From Geminocystis herdmanii PCC 6308 (GTDB taxonomy: Bacteria > Cyanobacteriota > Cyanobacteriia > Cyanobacteriales > Cyanobacteriaceae), in contig NZ_CM001775.1 of NCBI RefSeq assembly GCF_000332235.1, positions 1,766,230 through 1,830,229 of the forward strand: a DNA stretch of 64,000 nucleotides, given 5' to 3'. The notes under the pieces were generated by a model. It saw nothing but the letters and a program-made list of their open reading frames with translations. It had not been told where the DNA came from and ran no database searches. Made by a program: the position numbers and the translations under genes. Numbering within the stretch: the stretch's first letter is position 1; the number at the start of each line of letters is the position of its first letter. This document shows, piece after piece, positions 8,778-64,000 of the stretch.

Positions 8778-8831
8778 AACAAAATTAATGGAGAATGGAG
8801 AATGTTACCTATTACCGAATACTGCCCTGTT

Positions 8832-8908
8832 AAGCCCCCCTACCCCCCAACTTTGGGGGAATCAAACTTGGTGAAAGTCCCCAGTATTGGGGATTTAGGG
8901 GCGGACAC
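8832..8908. repeat. C/G-rich dispersed repeat in the 368-bp spacer before urtA
   Basis: The spacer 8778-9145 holds no gene. Its left half contains a repeat of the type TAAGCCCCCC...CTTTGGGGG...GTCCCCAGTATTGGGGATTTAGGGGCG, with two hairpin-forming parts. The same repeat occurs at 34067-34141 and, remarkably, inside the mfd coding sequence at about 63931-63983. It is preceded by a short GGAGAAT-type repeat near 8790. The right half of the spacer carries the urtA promoter. Confidence 0.75.
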
Positions 8909-9065
8909 AATAACTTGAGCGACTAACCGAACAGTATTGATTATCTATAGCACCTAAAGCCTAACAACGCTTTAATGCTTTGATGTTAACAAATTATTTC
9001 AGGGAAATGATTAAGCAATTCTATATTATTTAATTAGTATAACACTACATTCATAGGAAAAATAT

Positions 9066-15173: not shown

Positions 15174-15302
15174 AATGGAGAATGGAGAATGGAGAATGGA
15201 GAATGGAGAATGGAGAATGGAGAATGGAGAATGGAGAATGGAGAATGGAGAATGGAGAATGGAGAATGGAGAATGGAGAATGGAGAATGGAGAATGGAGA
15301 AT
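15174..15302. repeat. GGAGAAT seven-base tandem repeat, 18 perfect copies
   Basis: From 15177 to 15302 the unit GGAGAAT repeats 18 times without error, with a partial copy in front. Because seven is not a multiple of three and the unit contains no stop in any phase, it is open in several frames on both strands. That generates false peptides such as (MENGEWR)n. It lies between the start of the histidine kinase gene and the end of the NIL-ferredoxin gene. It belongs to the class of cyanobacterial short tandemly repeated repetitive (STRR) heptamers. Confidence 0.95.
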
Positions 15303-19194: not shown

Positions 19195-19616
19195 ATGAGC
19201 AACTACATATTACGTTTATACATTACAGGAAATTCTCTTAATTCTCAACGAGCGATCGCTAATCTGTTAAAATTGTGCAAAGAGGAATTGAGTAATCAAT
19301 ATATAGCAGTCAGTTATGAGTTGTGAAAATTATCTTATCATCAAAGGCAAGAGGCAAAAGGCAAAAGGCAAGATTAGTCGTATCTTCGATATTTTTTCTA
19401 ATAATTTATTTCTCACAAATGATTCCTGATTGCTATAAAGTAGAAATTATTGATGTATTAGAAGAACCACAAAGGGCGGAAAGAGAGAAAATCTTAGTAA
19501 CTCCCACCCTCATTAAACAATTACCTCCTCCATTACAAAGAATTATTGGTGATTTATCTAACCGTGAAAAAGTTATTTGTGGATTAGATTTAATTACTAA
19601 ACAATCCGATAAATAA
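19195..19616 (+). pseudogene. KaiB-like gene split by a 132-bp MITE
   Basis: The first part (19195-19303) encodes MSNYILRLYITGNSLNSQRA and on to KEELSNQY, the thioredoxin-like start of KaiB. The second part (from about 19437) encodes [18 protein letters not shown], then [19 protein letters not shown] and [13 protein letters not shown], a near-perfect KaiB C-terminal half. Between them a TA-flanked element shifts the frame and brings a TGA stop at 19324-19326. Removing the element and one TA gives the continuous reading ...[11 protein letters not shown]..., about 96 residues, a normal KaiB length. As it stands only a 43-residue fragment would be made. It lies between a response regulator and a histidine kinase gene. 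Confidence 0.88.
19304..19435. mobile_element. 132-bp IS630-like MITE inside the KaiB-like gene
   Basis: The element begins TAGCAGTCAG and ends CTGATTGCTA, with a TA on each side (19302-19303 and 19436-19437). The inverted repeats extend about 25 bases with roughly 20 matches. The terminal TAGCA and the GTTATGAG further in also occur in the ends of the IS630-family element at 27216-28244, which suggests a related non-autonomous derivative. Its interior carries four to five copies of a seven-base AGGCAAA-type repeat at about 19343-19372. Confidence 0.85.
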
Positions 19617-19704
19617 TTAAGAATTAACAATTAAAAATTAAGAATTAAGAATTAAGAATTAAGAATTAAGAATTAAGAATTAAGAATTAAGAATTAAGAA
19701 TTAA
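19617..19704. repeat. AAGAATT seven-base tandem repeat, about 12 copies
   Basis: Directly after the KaiB-like stop codon, AATTAAG-type heptamers run for about 88 bases. They are followed to 19760 by a looser C-rich repeat of CCCTAATT type. The spacer 19617-19800 holds no gene. It separates the KaiB-like gene from the histidine kinase and may have grown after the operon formed. Confidence 0.9.
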
Positions 19705-34005: not shown

Positions 34006-34066
34006 GTAATCGGTGTTAGGTAATCGGTTTTAGAAGCTGTTTGAAAAGCCTTAATTTTGACCATTG

Positions 34067-34141
34067 CTCCCCCCTTGCCCCCTTGAAGAAGGGGGAAATA
34101 TTAGAGAAAGTCCCCCTTAGTAAGGGGGATTTAGGGGGATC
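34067..34141. repeat. C/G-rich dispersed repeat between the kinase and DUF928 genes
   Basis: Two hairpin-forming parts (CCCCCTTG...AAGGGGG and GTCCCCCTTAGTAAGGGGGATTTAGGGG) match the family at 8832-8908 and in mfd. It lies in the 238-bp spacer 34006-34243, which otherwise ends with the DUF928 ribosome binding site. Confidence 0.75.
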
Positions 34142-34243
34142 AGAAACCTTTAAAACAGGTTCTTAGATTATAAATGGATTGAACTTTTTATTTTTTATTA
34201 CGTCTTAATCTTAGTTAAATTATTTTATTTGGAGGTCAATCTA

Positions 34244-44366: not shown

Positions 44367-44371
44367 AAAGA

Positions 44372-44458
44372 ATTGAGAATGGAGAATTGAGAATGGAGAA
44401 TTGAGAATGGAGAATTGAAAATGGAGAATTGAGAATGAAGAATTGAAAATTGAAAATT
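44372..44458. repeat. GAGAATGGAGAATT-type heptamer repeat
   Basis: Alternating seven-base units GAGAATG and GAGAATT/GAAAATT run for about 87 bases between the MBL-fold gene and the M50 protease gene. They are followed by a C-rich stretch of CCCTAATT type. Confidence 0.85.
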
Positions 44459-47278: not shown

Positions 47279-48196
47279 ATGTCTCAATTTCCCCATGACG
47301 AATTTGTCAAAGAAGTGTTACCAGAATTGTATCAAAATTATGGTCAAGTAATTCCTTCAGCGGATGTAAGTAGCGAAAGAAGAGAAGTGGATATTCTTTT
47401 TATTCCTGATAAATCAGTACCGACAACACCCGACACATTAGGATTATTAGGAAAAATTGCACAAACAACTTGTTTAATAGAAGTTTACCGTAATCATATT
47501 CAAGCCGAGCAGATTATGGATTGTATTGGTAAACTAATTAGTGTCAAAAACAATCTTTTAAAAGACCAAAAAAAAGACATCGCTTTATGGATTATAACCC
47601 CTACGGTTTCTAAACAGATTTTGAGTCAATTTTCAGGACAACCTCAAGAAAATTGGGAGAAAGGAGTGTATTTTTTACCTCAAGGATTTAACACAGGTAT
47701 TATTGCCGTACATCAATTACCAAAAACTCCCCAAACATTATGGTTAAGACTATTTGGCAGGGATAAAATACAGCTTAGTGCCATCGAGGAATTGGAATCA
47801 TTACCCGATAACCACCCTTCCCGAAAAAATATATTAAAATCGGTATATGGTTTATTAAATGCTATGGAAGCAAATCAGAATAAATCATTCTCACTCAATC
47901 AAAAAAGGCAGGTGTTAATTATGAGTTTAAGAGCAATATTTGATCAAGAATTCGCCCAAAAAGAAGAAGAAGCAGTGCAACAAGGTATTCAACAAGGTAT
48001 TCAACAAGGTATTCAACAAGGTATTCAACAGGGTATTCAACAAGGTATTCAACAAGGTATTCAACAAGGTAAATTTGAAGGGAAACTGGAAACAGTACCA
48101 CTTTTAATCCAATTAGGTGTGAGTGTCGATGACATTGCTAATCGTCTTAATTTACCCCTAGAGATGATAAAAAAAGCTGTTAATCCCCAAAACTAA
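47279..48196 (+). CDS. Rpn/PD-(D/E)XK-like protein with QQGI repeat
   Basis: This 305-residue protein begins MSQFPHDEFVKEVLPELYQN and has a nuclease-like core with SSERREVDILFIPD and TCLIEVYRN. It ends in a helical region whose tail contains seven perfect QQGI repeats (about residues 234-261), followed by GKLETVPLLIQLGVSVDDIANRLNL. Relatives are often misnamed flagellar assembly proteins because of the QQG repeat. Nuclease activity is inferred only from the fold pattern. The start is ATG at 47279. Confidence 0.72.
   Translation: MSQFPHDEFVKEVLPELYQNYGQVIPSADVSSERREVDILFIPDKSVPTTPDTLGLLGKIAQTTCLIEVYRNHIQAEQIMDCIGKLISVKNNLLKDQKKDIALWIITPTVSKQILSQFSGQPQENWEKGVYFLPQGFNTGIIAVHQLPKTPQTLWLRLFGRDKIQLSAIEELESLPDNHPSRKNILKSVYGLLNAMEANQNKSFSLNQKRQVLIMSLRAIFDQEFAQKEEEAVQQGIQQGIQQGIQQGIQQGIQQGIQQGIQQGKFEGKLETVPLLIQLGVSVDDIANRLNLPLEMIKKAVNPQN
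47978..48073 (+). repeat. 12-bp tandem repeat CAACAAGGTATT inside the gene
   Basis: Seven units of CAACAAGGTATT (one with CAACAGGG) plus a partial eighth encode (QQGI)7QQGK. Near-perfect identity shows recent copy-number change, which always keeps the reading frame. Confidence 0.95.
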
Positions 48197-48665: not shown

Positions 48666-51600
48666 ATGACTATCAATATCAACCCTTTTAATACTTTAGT
48701 TGTCAATGCTAACAGTAATGATACTATTCTAAATCTATTTCAATATTTTGATGATCCTTTTACCACTGGGAAAATTGCCACTTTTAACTTATACGACAAC
48801 AACCTTGGTAATGGAGAAATTAATGTTTTATTATTTGATCAAAATGGAGAAGGTGCGCCCCTAACAGTTAACAATTTTTTACAATATGTTGACGATAACG
48901 CCTATGTTAACTCTATTATCCATCGATCTCTACCGAATTTTGTCATTCAAGGAGGCGGTTTTACCACTAATAATTTGGAGGTGAATAATATACAAACAAA
49001 TCCTCCAGTGGTTAACGAGTTTAGCTCAAATCGTTCTAATACAAGGGGTACAATCGCTATGGCAAAGTTAGGAGGTGATCCTAATAGTGCTACAAGTCAA
49101 TGGTTTTTTAATGTAGCTAATAACGCCAGTAATTTAGATTATCAAAATGGTGGTTTTACTGTCTTTGGTGAAGTACTTTCTGGAAATGACTTAAATACTA
49201 TAGATTCGATCGCATCTTTATCTACTATTGACGCTAGGGTTACAAATCCCGCTTTTACTAACCTACCCGTAATTAATTCTCCCGTAAATGACGACAATGA
49301 TTTAGTTAGATTCGAGAATATCACCGTTACTGATGTACCTGAATTGAGTTTTACCATCCAAAATAACACCAATCCTAGTTTAGTTACTTCTACCATTAAC
49401 AATCAGGGAGAAATTTTATTTGATTACCATAGCAATACCAATGGTGTCGCTGAAATTACCATCCAAGCTACCAATTTATTAGGAGAAACTCAAAACAATA
49501 CTGTCAGAGTCTTAGTCTTAGTTACTGATGATACCCTTGATGGTGGCACGGGTGCGGATAGTATGGTAGGAGGTGCTGGTAACGATACCTACTATGTGGA
49601 TAATGTTAATGATGTAGTGATAGAAAGACTAAATGAGGGCATAGACACTGTTATTTCCACCATCACCTATACCTTACCCAACCATGTAGAAAACTTAACC
49701 TTAAGTGGCACTGCGAATATTAACGGCACGGGTAATACTCTGAATAACATAATCAGTGGTAACAGTGGTAATAACAAGCTAAGTGGAGGCGGTGGTAATG
49801 ATACCTTAAATGGTGGTACTGGTGCAGATACTATGTTTGGCGGTAGTGGTGATGATCTTTACTATGTGGATAATACGGGCGATCGAGTCATTGAAAAAGC
49901 TAATCAAGGTATTGATACAGTTATCTCAACCATTACTTACACTTTACCTAACCATGTAGAAAACTTAACCTTAAGTGGTAGTGCAAATCTCAACGGTACG
50001 GGAAACGGATTAAATAATGTCATCAGGGGTAACAGTGGTAATAATATCCTTAATGGGGGTGCAGGTGCAGATACCATGAGAGGAGGTGCAGGTAACGATA
50101 CCTATTATGTGGATAATACGGGCGATCGAGTTATCGAAAATGTCAATCAGGGTACAGATACGGTTCGATCGACCATCACCTATACTTTACCGAATCATGT
50201 GGAATACTTAATCTTAACCGGTGCAGCAAACATTAATGGTACAGGCAATACTTTAGATAACCGTATCACTGGTAACAGTGGTAATAATCGCCTTATCGGT
50301 GGTGATGGTAATGATACCCTTATTGCTGGTGCGGGGAATGATACCTTATCTGGGGGAGTGGGTGCAGATAGTATGGTAGGAGGATTAGGAAATGATCTTT
50401 ACGGTGTAGATCATCCGGGGGATGTGATTGTGGAAGCCTTGAATGGTGGTATCGATACCGTGAATAGTTCCATTACTTACACATTGCCTGACAACGTCGA
50501 AAATCTGAAGTTAACAGGCACAACCAATATTAGTGGTACAGGGAATATCTTAAATAACGTCATCACTGGTAACAGTGGCAATAATCGCCTTAATGGTGGT
50601 GATGGTAACGATACCTTAATCGGTGGTGAGGGGAATGATACCTTATCAGGAGGAGTGGGTGCCGATAGTATGGTAGGGGGTAGTGGAAATGATCTTTACG
50701 GTGTAGATCATCCGGGGGATGTGATTGTGGAAGCCTTGAATGGTGGTATCGATACCGTGAATAGTTCCATTACCTACACACTGGGAGCAAACTTAGAAAA
50801 CCTCACTTTAACAGGCACAACCAATATTAGTGGTACGGGGAATATCTTAAACAATGTCATCAGGGGTAATAGTGGTAATAATCGCCTTAATGGTGGTGAT
50901 GGTAACGATACCTTAATCGGTGGTGAGGGGAATGATACCTTATCAGGAGGAGTGGGTGCCGATAGTATGGTAGGGGGTAGTGGAAATGATCTTTACGGTG
51001 TAGATCATCCGGGGGATGTGATTGTGGAAGCCTTGAATGGTGGTATTGATACCGTGAATAGTTCCATTACCTACACACTGGGAGCAAACTTAGAAAACCT
51101 CACTTTAACAGGCACAACCAATATTAGTGGTACGGGGAATATCTTAAATAACGTCATCACTGGTAACAGTGGCAATAATCGCCTTATCGGTGGTGATGGT
51201 AACGATACCCTCATTGGTGGTGCAGGTAACGATACCTTATCAGGAGGCACGGGTGCGGATAGTATGATCGGAGGATTAGGAAATGATCTTTACGGTGTAG
51301 ATCATCCGGGGGATATGATTGTGGAAGCCTTGAATGGTGGTATTGATACCGTGAATAGTTCCATTACCTACACACTGGGAGCAAACTTAGAAAACCTCAC
51401 TTTAACAGGCACAACCAATATTAGTGGTACGGGTAATACCTTAAATAATGTTATCATCGGTAATAGTGGTAATAATATTCTGACAGGAGGAGCTGGTAAC
51501 GATACCCTAACGGGGGGAGGAGGCAATGATACCCTTATCGGTGGTATTGGTAATGATACCCTGACGGGAGGCTCTGGTAATGACTTTTTCCGCTTTAATT

Positions 51601-53066: not shown

Positions 53067-54725
53067 TTGAATCATAAATATTCTTTTCCCCATAGCTTTG
53101 ATGTTATCATCATCGGTTCAGGTGCGGCAGGTTTATATTCTGCTTTATGTCTTCCTGATAATTTGCGTGTTGCAGTTATCACTAAAGATAAATTGAAAAA
53201 AGGTGCGAGTGATTGGGCGCAAGGAGGCATTGCGGCGGCGATCGATCCTGATGATTCATCACAACTTCACTTAGAAGATACTTTGAAGGCGGGTGCAGGT
53301 TTATGTGATGCACAAGCTGTTAAATATTTAGTGGAAAATGCGGTAATTTCGATTCAATCTTTGTTAAAAATGGGGGTGGATTTTGATAAGGATAATGGAG
53401 AGTTAGCGACTACTTTGGAGGCTGCCCATTCTTTCCCTAGGGTGCTTCATGCGGCGGATACTACGGGAAGGGCGATCGTATCTATCCTAAGACAAAAAGT
53501 GTTAGAAAGTCAACATATTAGCGTTTATGAACAAGCCTATGCTCTGAATTTATGGTTAGATGACGATAAAAAACAATGTCAGGGAGTTTGTTTATTATAC
53601 GAAAATGGCATTCATTGGCTAAAAGCACAAGGGGTTATTTTAGCCACAGGTGGAGGAGGGCAGGTTTTTGCCCATACCACTAACCCCCAAGTTAGCACGG
53701 GAGATGGTGTTGCTTTAGCTTGGCGCGCAGGTGCGGTGTTACGAGATTTAGAGTTTGTACAATTTCACCCTACGGCTTTAGATAGAGAAAACGCTCCTCA
53801 TTTTTTGATTAGTGAAGCGGTGAGGGGTGAGGGTGCGCATTTAATTGATAAGGATGGAAGACGTTTTGCTTTTGATTATCACCCCAAAGGAGAGTTAGCA
53901 CCTAGAGACATTGTGAGTCGATCGATCTATAATCATTTACATAAGGTTAGTAATGATCCTGTCCATGATAAGGTATATTTGGACTTACGATCGATTCCCG
54001 TGCCTCGTATCGAATACCGTTTTCCCAATATCATCAATAAATGTAAACAGTGGGGCATCGACTTATTTTCACAATCCATTCCCGTATCTCCTGCCGCCCA
54101 TTATTGGATGGGGGGAGTAAAAGTCAATCTGAATAATGAGACTTCGATTAAGGGGTTATACGCCATCGGCGAAACCGCTAGTACTGGTGTTCACGGTGCA
54201 AATCGTTTAGCCAGTAATTCTCTGTTGGAGTGTGTGGTGTTTGCTGAAAGTTTCCGCAATTTAAGCCTTGATTCTAGGTTAATAGAAGAATCATTGCCTT
54301 TAGTTTCTGAGTCTGTTAATGATGATTGGGGAAAAGAGATGCCTTTAATTCAACAAATTCGTCAAGATTTACCCATTGTTGTGTGGGAGGGAGCTGGAAT
54401 TTGTCGCACTCAAGTAGGTTTAGAAAGCTCGATCGAACAAATAGTAACTTGGCGCAATCAATTAAAATCCTTAGCAATTTATCAATGGCTGACAGAATTA
54501 TCACCCTCTCAACAGTATGAATTAAAGTCACCCCAAGGAGAGGAGTACTTGAAATTAACCGCAGAAACCCTTAATTTAATAGATATAGGTTATTTAATCC
54601 TCAAAAGTGCGCTTTTTCGAGAAGAAAGTCGAGGAGGACATTATCGTTTAGACTATCCCCATAGTAATGATAATTGGTTAACCCATACTTTAGTTCAAAA
54701 TGATCATTGGCAACAAAGCAATTAA
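53067..54725 (+). CDS. nadB: L-aspartate oxidase
   Basis: This 552-residue flavoprotein makes iminoaspartate in the first step of NAD synthesis. The FAD motif VIIIGSGAAGLYSALCL lies at about residues 14-30. Further family motifs are KGASDWAQGGIAAAIDPDDS near 46, ATGGGGQVFAHTTNP near 194, FVQFHPTAL near 231, and HYWMGGVKVN then GANRLASNSLLECVVF. No ATG precedes the FAD motif in frame, so the start is TTG at 53067. A seven-base repeat follows the stop codon. Confidence 0.94.
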   Translation: MNHKYSFPHSFDVIIIGSGAAGLYSALCLPDNLRVAVITKDKLKKGASDWAQGGIAAAIDPDDSSQLHLEDTLKAGAGLCDAQAVKYLVENAVISIQSLLKMGVDFDKDNGELATTLEAAHSFPRVLHAADTTGRAIVSILRQKVLESQHISVYEQAYALNLWLDDDKKQCQGVCLLYENGIHWLKAQGVILATGGGGQVFAHTTNPQVSTGDGVALAWRAGAVLRDLEFVQFHPTALDRENAPHFLISEAVRGEGAHLIDKDGRRFAFDYHPKGELAPRDIVSRSIYNHLHKVSNDPVHDKVYLDLRSIPVPRIEYRFPNIINKCKQWGIDLFSQSIPVSPAAHYWMGGVKVNLNNETSIKGLYAIGETASTGVHGANRLASNSLLECVVFAESFRNLSLDSRLIEESLPLVSESVNDDWGKEMPLIQQIRQDLPIVVWEGAGICRTQVGLESSIEQIVTWRNQLKSLAIYQWLTELSPSQQYELKSPQGEEYLKLTAETLNLIDIGYLILKSALFREESRGGHYRLDYPHSNDNWLTHTLVQNDHWQQSN

Positions 54726-54830
54726 GAATTAAGAATTAAGAATTAAGAATTAAGAATTAAGAATTAAGAATTAAGAATTAAGAATTAAGAATTGAGAATT
54801 GAGAATTAAGAATTAACAATTAACAATTAA
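54724..54830. repeat. AAGAATT seven-base repeat after nadB, about 14 copies
   Basis: AATTAAG/AATTGAG/AATTAAC heptamers fill about 107 bases from the nadB stop. A CCTGTCTT eight-base repeat follows at about 54841-54870. The spacer 54726-54915 holds no gene. Confidence 0.92.
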
Positions 54831-57566: not shown

Positions 57567-57649
57567 AGTAAAAAGTAATAAGTAAAAAGTAATGAGTAAT
57601 AAGTAATAAGTAATGAGTAATGAGTAATGAGTAATGAGTAATAAGTAAT
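57567..57649. repeat. GTAATRA seven-base repeat, about 11 copies
   Basis: AGTAATA, AGTAAAA and AGTAATG heptamers run almost to the stop codon of the next gene. They are A/T-rich and imperfect. Confidence 0.85.
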
Positions 57650-59215: not shown

Positions 59216-59281
59216 AGAAGTTAGGAGATAGAAGATAGAAGATAGGAGATAGGAGATAGAAGATAGAAGATAGAAGATAAG
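59216..59281. repeat. AGAAGAT/AGGAGAT seven-base repeat
   Basis: About nine heptamers of AGAAGAT, AGGAGAT and AGGAGTT type lie between two genes on the same strand. They are purine-only on the plus strand apart from T. Confidence 0.85.
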
Positions 59282-62644: not shown

Positions 62645-62860
62645 TAGCAATCGCTATTTTAGTTAAGGTTTGAGTTAAAATGAAAATAAAATGCCAAAAC
62701 TCTATAGTAAAGAGAAAGAATTGTTGATAATTACTCTAGTGCTTTTGTAGAGGAGGGCATTGCCTTTGAATTACTAGCCTAAGGTTATCGACAGACAATA
62801 TAGGAGAATTAACTCCTATGCTGTCATTGCGAGGTTTGACATTTAAAGATAGGATTGCTA
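62645..62860. mobile_element. possible IS630-like MITE next to mfd
   Basis: TAGCAATCGCTATTTT at the left and the reverse of AAGATAGGATTGCTA at the right form imperfect inverted repeats of about 16 bases. The segment is bounded by TA on each side (62643-62644 and 62861-62862). The terminal bases match the IS630-type ends at 27216 and 19304. The interior contains CTGTCATTGCGAGG, part of a dispersed repeat. The call is tentative. Confidence 0.45.
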
Positions 62861-62895
62861 TATTATCTCCTCTTCTGTTTTATCTATCCTTATCC

Positions 62896-64000
62896 ATGCT
62901 CAACTCTGTAATTCGATCGATCTCTAAATCCCCCTTAACCAGCGAATTAATTCAAAAACTCAACCACAGTCAAAAGCTGAATTTACAAGGAGTTGCTCGT
63001 TTACCTAAAGGTTTAGTTACCGCTTCTATTAGTCAAAGTGAACAGAAAAACTTACTTGTAATTTGTGCCACCCTTGAAGAATCAGCCCGTTGGATGGCTA
63101 ATATTGAGGTTATGGGCTATAAACAAGTTTTTTTCTATCCCACCACAGAAGCGAGTCCCTATGAACCTTTTAACAGTGAATCTGAGATGATTTGGGGACA
63201 GATGCAGACCCTTTCAAGCCTAATTGCTCAAGATGTTACAAGCTCTCCTTTAGCGGTTGTCACCACAGAAAAAGCCTTACAACCCCACTTACCACCCCCT
63301 TGCATTTTTGCTGACTATTGCTTAAATTTGAGCAAGGGCATGACTTTAGAGAGTAAGAATATTGATCTAACTTTAACAAGGATGGGGTACGATCGAGTTA
63401 ATTTAGTGGAAATCGAAGGACAATGGAGTAAAAGAGGGGATTTAATCGATATTTTCCCAGTTTCGGCAGAATTACCCGTCAGATTAGATTTTTTTGGCGA
63501 TGAATTGGAGTCTATTCGAGAATTTGATCCTGTTACTCAACGAAGTTTAGATAAGATAGACGAATTAACTCTGACTCCCACTACATGGACGGGGATAATT
63601 AGTCAGAATTTGCCTAGTATAGAAATTATTAAACCATATATTAGCACTAAGGAGCAAGAAAATTTAGATAATGGTATTTATCCCGAAGCTATGAGTCGTT
63701 TTTTAGGGTGCGCTTTTCATGGTGAAAATGGTCATGTTGCCTCGATTTTAGACTATTTTCCTGAGAATTCGATCGTTGCCATTGATGAGGTAGAACAATG
63801 TACTGCCCATAGCCGTATTTGGGTGGAACAAGCGCAAGAAAAATGGCAATTAATTAATGAATCTGTTATTCTCCCTGACGGAATAATCCCCCCTAACCCC
63901 AAGTCTGAGGAAGAAAAATTAAGCCCCCTTGCCCCCAAATCTGGGGGTAAAAATGAAGTCTCTAATATTGGGGATTTAGGGGCGATTCCGAAAATTCATC
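62896..64000 (+). CDS. mfd: transcription-repair coupling factor Mfd, N-terminal part (3' end outside window)
   Basis: The frame opens at ATG 62896 and stays open to the end of the window (368 codons). It covers the UvrB-like N-terminal module: LVICATLEESARWMANIEVM near residue 55, FFYPTTEASPYEPFNSESEM near 85, and VEIEGQWSKRGDLIDIFPVSAELPVRLDFFGDELESIREFDP near 175. Mfd removes stalled RNA polymerase and recruits UvrA to the lesion. Residues about 328-363 are encoded by a dispersed C-rich repeat inserted in frame. Mfd is normally about 1150 residues, so the RNA polymerase-binding and motor domains lie beyond 64000. Confidence 0.93.
   Translation, partial: MLNSVIRSISKSPLTSELIQKLNHSQKLNLQGVARLPKGLVTASISQSEQKNLLVICATLEESARWMANIEVMGYKQVFFYPTTEASPYEPFNSESEMIWGQMQTLSSLIAQDVTSSPLAVVTTEKALQPHLPPPCIFADYCLNLSKGMTLESKNIDLTLTRMGYDRVNLVEIEGQWSKRGDLIDIFPVSAELPVRLDFFGDELESIREFDPVTQRSLDKIDELTLTPTTWTGIISQNLPSIEIIKPYISTKEQENLDNGIYPEAMSRFLGCAFHGENGHVASILDYFPENSIVAIDEVEQCTAHSRIWVEQAQEKWQLINESVILPDGIIPPNPKSEEEKLSPLAPKSGGKNEVSNIGDLGAIPKIH
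63880..63985. repeat. dispersed C/G-rich repeat inserted in the mfd coding sequence
   Basis: CCCCCCTAACCCC, then CCCTTGCCCCCAAATCTGGGGG and TATTGGGGATTTAGGGGCG, match the intergenic repeats at 8832-8908 and 34067-34141. Here the repeat is read as protein (LSPLAPKSGGKNEV and SNIGDLGAIP among others) without breaking the frame. Confidence 0.85.

Follow-up and report, generated by a model that had tools for sequence, protein, structure and literature searches.

The window analysed here is the 64,000-bp stretch at positions 1766230-1830229 of C1 in genome G000, which is a single contig of 4,263,418 bp. The closest relatives of G000 are Geminocystis sp. GBBB08 and a cyanobacterial MAG, both of the same genus. 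At the right end of the window lies, on the forward strand, the 5' part of mfd, the gene for the transcription-repair coupling factor (62818..63999). Its frame contains DGIIPPNPKSEEEKLSPLAPKSGGKNEVSNIGDLGAIPKIH and runs past the window end to about C1:1832718. With the DNA beyond the window read, the complete ORF is 1223 aa long with no stops and no frame breaks, and it encodes the UvrB_inter, RID, DEAD/Helicase_C and TRCF domains in this order, as in members of the Mfd/TRCF family. The longest ORF opens 26 codons ahead of the Met where relatives start aligning (62818-62896), and the annotated start may be too early; the alignment with relatives suggests that the true start is likely at 62896 (Met27 of the longest ORF).

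Within mfd, a 66-bp C/G-rich, palindromic repeat core, here called type A (63919..63984, forward strand), encodes LSPLAPKSGGKNEVSNIGDLGA in the mfd frame (residues 368-389 in the numbering of the longest ORF). Numbering from the start at 62896 is consistent with the residues (328-363) first assigned to the segment. Just upstream of the core, in frame (IPPNP) on the same strand at about 63886-63901, is a C-rich stretch, ATCCCCCCTAACCCCA, that by sequence similarity is probably the decayed remnant of a second repeat unit and that resembles ATTCCTCCTAACCTCC of the Mfd loop in another Geminocystis genome, G004. The original prediction, that a repeat found between genes also occurs inside the mfd frame without a stop or frame change, is borne out by the intact 1223-aa ORF. 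A frame break further downstream was looked for and is absent, and all Mfd domains are intact.

The mfd repeat is not a chance resemblance, because BLAST against its own genome gives 23 more matches to the segment (best E 2.6e-11) and the 13-bp sequence GGGGATTTAGGGG is in excess in the window, with nine occurrences at up to two mismatches versus 1.2 expected. Exact copies (n = 3) are at 8889, 34125 and 63970. The original prediction had equated the mfd repeat with intergenic copies at 8832 and 34067. This holds for the former, a type-A copy with 76% identity to the mfd segment (E 3.7e-6), but not for the latter. That copy is of type B, a sister subfamily whose terminal inverted repeats differ, and it gave no BLAST match to the mfd copy at E<=1e-3. 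Both intergenic copies lie on the forward strand within MITE-like elements: one at 8818..8938 (type-A core about 8833-8902; terminal inverted repeats AATACTGCCCTGTTA and TAACCGAACAGTATT), and one at 34032..34163 (type-B core 34068-34138; AGAAGCTGTTTGAAA and TTTAAAACAGGTTCT). Each has several copies and falls within 70-300 bp, and in their length and terminal inverted repeats they resemble the cyanobacterial MITEs reviewed in PMC10969869. In contrast, the mfd repeat is a bare core that lacks terminal inverted repeats and is thus not a MITE.

The core has the layout GCCCC(C)..CCCCC-loop-GGGGG-spacer-AAGTCCCC-loop-GGGGATTTAGGGGC, which amounts to two hairpins and a closing outer stem. In the copies read, its ends are GCCCC..GGGGC in type A and GATCCCC..GGGGGATC in type B. 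For the mfd copy, RNA folding predicts hairpin 1 (CCCCC..GGGGG) at 63929..63950 and hairpin 2 (AAGTCTCTA..TGGGGATTT) at 63956..63977, both on the forward strand, as is the 5' arm of the outer stem (63923..63927), which pairs with 63979-63983. The predicted three-way junction has a free energy of -31.7 kcal/mol and a z-score of -3.55, and the orthologous mfd segments fold more weakly (z -1.05 in G002, -1.6 in G003 and -0.8 in G001). The G000 copy is a near-perfect three-way junction although it has diverged as much as the other mfd copies, a possible hint that copies elsewhere have converted it. Among known RNA families, the only match was to PhotoRC-II; it was sub-threshold (22 bits against a threshold of 39) and was treated as chance.

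The position of the repeat in the protein was examined by alignment and by structure prediction. The interval from the W of the EEKW helix to the H of (K)IHR measures 50 residues in G000 and 32-50 across the genus, versus 9-26 residues in cyanobacteria outside the genus (median 12 in 55 other sequences). In an AlphaFold2 model covering Mfd residues 32-560, pLDDT drops below 50 at this loop (fragment 325-354, about residues 356-385) and nowhere else within the UvrB-like module; the other low-confidence parts of the model are short stretches near the fragment end. The loop, which is predicted to be disordered, sits between a confident long helix (residues 325-351) and the next element, and the UvrB-like module superposes on E. 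coli Mfd 2EYQ (Z 27.9, rmsd 3.5, 340 residues). These observations support the proposal that the repeat was inserted in frame into a loop of this module, and the otherwise intact Mfd supports the suggestion that the repeat is tolerated. The longer Mfd of Hydrocoleum (L072) was considered as another insertion and rejected, as it is a scaffold duplication.

Orthologues were compared across five Geminocystis genomes (G000-G004). The mfd segment is readable in G000, G002 and G003 and decayed in G001, and a recent, strain-specific entry is therefore not supported. Because the Mfd loop of G004 is not clearly repeat-derived, it is uncertain at which point of the tree the core entered. Whether all relatives carry the segment, a point on which the idea of an insertion had been made to depend, thus has a split answer: largely so in Geminocystis, but not beyond that genus. 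The readable segments share the same spacer (GAAAATnAAgT-like). Gap-free mfd columns give the tree ((G000,G002),(G001,G003)),G004, in which the four-species grouping has weak support (0.74 by nucleotides, 0.43 by protein). From about 18 synonymous sites, dS of the loop is 0.42-0.68, near the 0.69-0.79 of gap-free mfd, and the insertion would therefore be about as old as the species split. In the loop, dN is 0.20-0.32 versus 0.06-0.07 in gap-free mfd, three to five times higher, and dN/dS is about 0.4-0.5. Judged by these rates, evolution of the loop is relaxed, yet not free. The simplest reading of the alignments is that of one insertion before the split of G000, G002, G001 and G003, followed by relaxed in-frame evolution.

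The mfd repeat is not a single curiosity, as the original prediction might have implied, since many genes carry such repeats. A census of G000 was anchored on GGGGATTTAGGGG, which was picked without regard to genes and searched by exact matches, so that diverged copies are missed; the anchor reads the same backwards, and a pattern control for the genome count is thus meaningless. There are 43 exact sites, of which 42 were read; one is native gyrA, and the remaining 41 were counted as repeats. Eighteen of these lie within 17 long ORFs. Seventeen of the in-gene copies are fully open with a long frame on both sides, all in +0 or -2. The sense frame (+0) reads ..VPxxGDLG.. and the antisense frame (-2) ..PKSPxxGTF.., and both are stop-free in most cores. 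In-gene and non-genic copies also differ at their ends: both terminal inverted repeats are present in none of the 18 in-gene copies versus 13 of 23 non-genic ones, and 20 of the 23 carry one or both (Fisher P about 1e-6, in-gene versus non-genic).

In a raw tally by Pfam, the majority of host genes encode MmeI, ISP and Eco57I methylases or belong to other restriction-modification (R-M) genes (L005, L162, L196, L198, L199, L208, L210, L150, L006 and L195). Other hosts encode the magnesium chelatase ChlH (chlH), a CobN-like chelatase (cobN), glutamate synthase (gltB), a CBS-DHH-polyA polymerase protein and a helicase. In-gene repeats are not always harmless, because in the eighteenth copy, in an MmeI paralogue at G000:C1:854504 (L199), a C6 to C5 change within the repeat breaks the gene. 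Its paralogues L208 and L216 carry the same repeat and are intact. The repeats thus bring slippery runs into R-M genes.

In gltB, chlH, uvrA and gcvP, which repeat family occupies a given loop varies among the five Geminocystis species. For instance, the gltB loop is filled by type B in G000, by a related core in G003 and by five copies of a 24-bp unit (AGSLNHIE units) in G004, and is short in G001 and G002. The chlH loop of G000 and of G003 carries type A in antisense orientation, and that of G001, G002 and G004 an AAGGCAG heptamer array. Similarly, CGCAAAGA-type repeats fill the uvrA loop of G002 and G004, where G000 has type B and G003 two type-A copies, and the gcvP loop contains type A in G003 and AGCTATC-type heptamers in G001 and G002, and is short in G004. 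Orthologues of a second GOGAT (GOGAT2) vary in repeat content, and the loop is short in G004. Orthologues without a repeat therefore exist for gltB (G001, G002), gcvP (G004), GOGAT2 (G004) and, outside the genus, Mfd. Dispersal of the G001, G002 and G004 repeats in their own genomes was checked within the fetched loci. Because repeats fill loops of several important proteins in frame, repeats in this genus presumably become protein repeatedly.

Among 291 genomes of the order, the type-A peptide was found in G000 and G003 only. The type-B peptide occurs in 108 of the 291, mostly in short frames with stops, and also in some long frames, which encode an NRPS, Cas1, an nSTAND protein, a CHAT protein and, in another taxonomic family, the MmeI loop that also hosts repeats in G000. 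Additional in-gene cores were seen in G003, in which an ISP methylase (L142; G003:C42:44449-44730) has three tandem cores where the G000 homologue has one, and a DUF1156 protein (L176; G003:C98) has several. In this MmeI loop (TTCFETFPFP..), homologues of different genera have type A, type B or mixed repeats (L218 of G027 versus L006 and L210 of G000).

We consider it probable, at roughly 80%, that the mfd segment reflects the ancient entry of a core into a permissive loop where it was kept in frame, and that the same process operates more generally in Geminocystis. The UvrB-like domain 1b would have taken up the palindromic C/G-rich core, in a permissive loop at its surface, before G000, G002, G001 and G003 diverged. 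It would presumably be translated as a disordered Pro/Gly-rich linker that leaves folding and function undisturbed, and translation of the in-gene segments in general is suggested by the frame rule and by conservation. Dispersed repeats may fall into many sites, with selection acting as a sieve, such that the survivors in genes sit in loops or interdomain linkers in a stop-free frame; selection of this kind appears to be the best account of the data. Later, the palindrome would decay while the frame stays, and some hosts would gain tandem copies. The bare core is presumably mobile and the mfd segment probably neutral. The junctions read show no target duplication. Origin from a RAYT/REPIN system was also considered and rejected: there are 13 PF01797 matches in four of the five genomes, none of them with a core in the fetched flanks, and no Y1 transposase was found in G002.

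The mfd loop could instead be a hot landing pad that type A entered separately in G000, G002 and G003. Repeated entry into one loop does happen, because the gltB, uvrA, gcvP and chlH loops differ in repeat family by species. However, the mfd copies agree in spacer length and sequence and in the derived TAAT of hairpin 2, and they diverge from one another at a gene-like dS, while independent copies elsewhere vary in spacer length; separate entries into mfd are thus unlikely. A broader proposal, which we regard as tentative and on balance doubtful, is that unrelated repeat families (the two palindromic cores, heptamer arrays, the 24-bp array and CGCAAAGA-type repeats) replace each other in frame in loops of essential proteins during species divergence, and that in R-M genes the repeats also bring in C/G homopolymer runs able to switch the gene off and on. 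If so, "intergenic" repeats would turn over as protein linkers.

The remaining alternatives concern what the segment does and how it arose. An adaptive segment, one that alters the activity of Mfd (or UvrA) and thereby, for example, nucleotide excision repair or mutation rate, would fit with mfd and uvrA both bearing repeats in Geminocystis. In other bacteria REPs recur in repair genes, and an adaptive role in such genes has been speculated for intragenic REPs (PMC3733652). Nevertheless, most hosts here are not repair genes, the loop is predicted to be disordered and its dN/dS is relaxed, and we consider adaptation quite improbable. The segment might also be present in the mRNA and absent from the protein: in yeast mitochondria, ribosomes reportedly bypass palindromic insertions (cited in PMC6649704), and the RNA structure predicted here is strong. 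Bypass needs neither open frames nor lengths in multiples of three, yet nearly every in-gene copy keeps a stop-free frame, and in G001-G003 the structure decays while the frame persists, which makes this explanation very hard to sustain. Equally remote is growth of the loop in place by low-complexity slippage, with a merely fortuitous resemblance to the repeat. Loop lengths do vary among cyanobacterial Mfd proteins, and tandem arrays such as that in gltB of G004 are known in such loops. However, the core matches dispersed copies over 66-74 bp and through both hairpins, at the low E values given above; slippage is thus refuted for the core and is possible only for the upstream remnant.

The preferred reading, early entry followed by in-frame retention, has precedents. 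The closest in kind are the Rickettsia palindromic elements (RPE; Ogata 2000, 2002, cited in PMC10969869), which are in-frame palindromic repeats. As with RPEs, multicopy palindromes are dispersed both between genes and in frame in unrelated genes, the peptide is preserved, the hosts are otherwise intact, and repeat-free orthologues exist. The likeness is one of functional class and not of homology. The core here is about 66 bp rather than ~150 bp, the host is a free-living phototroph, and here the intergenic copies are embedded in MITEs, whereas those in genes are bare. Intragenic GTAG/CGTC REPs (Di Nocera et al. 2013, PMC3733652) are short palindromes, often dimers, that add 20-30 residues in frame to uvrA and other repair genes, are thought to lie in linkers or loops, and include GTAG families in cyanobacteria. 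The Geminocystis cores are likewise short palindromes in frame with uvrA among their hosts, but they have two hairpins with an outer stem, no Y1/RAYT link and mainly R-M methylases as hosts, and no unpaired GTAG or CGTC tag was found at the stem-loop end in the copies read. They also share two inverted hairpins with a spacer with REPINs, which are mobilised by RAYT transposases (PMC3116915, PMC3733652), although no Y1 transposase found in Geminocystis has a core within the fetched flanks.

In-frame palindromic repeats (in Rickettsia) and intragenic REPs in repair genes are therefore already known. A search of the openly accessible literature turned up no earlier description of this repeat family lying in frame in cyanobacterial genes. 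What appears to be new is the high in-gene share, the division between bare cores and MITEs, and the presence of unrelated families in the same loops across one genus. Intergenic repeats are usually regarded as kept out of coding sequence, and here, in a free-living phototroph, they are in frame in enzymes of chlorophyll, nitrogen and glycine metabolism and of DNA repair. The empty, filled and decayed versions of these loops over five species form a datable series of repeat DNA entering protein, which can show the cost of entry and the passage of a repeat into ordinary sequence. For annotators they are a warning that such segments may be real protein.

Other repeats were observed in the window. 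Intergenic heptanucleotide tandem arrays (AATGGAG, AATTAAG, AGAATTG and others) are common, at 15174-15302, 19615-19704, 44369-44458, 54720-54830, 57567-57649 and 59216-59279, and relatives carry arrays of this class in frame within chlH and gcvP. A 305-aa ORF contains a 12-bp tandem array of about eight units (47978-48071), which encodes (QQGI)n. Additionally, about four 297-bp tandem units of GGTGGTAACGAT-type sequence, RTX-like by appearance, are present at 50232-51539.
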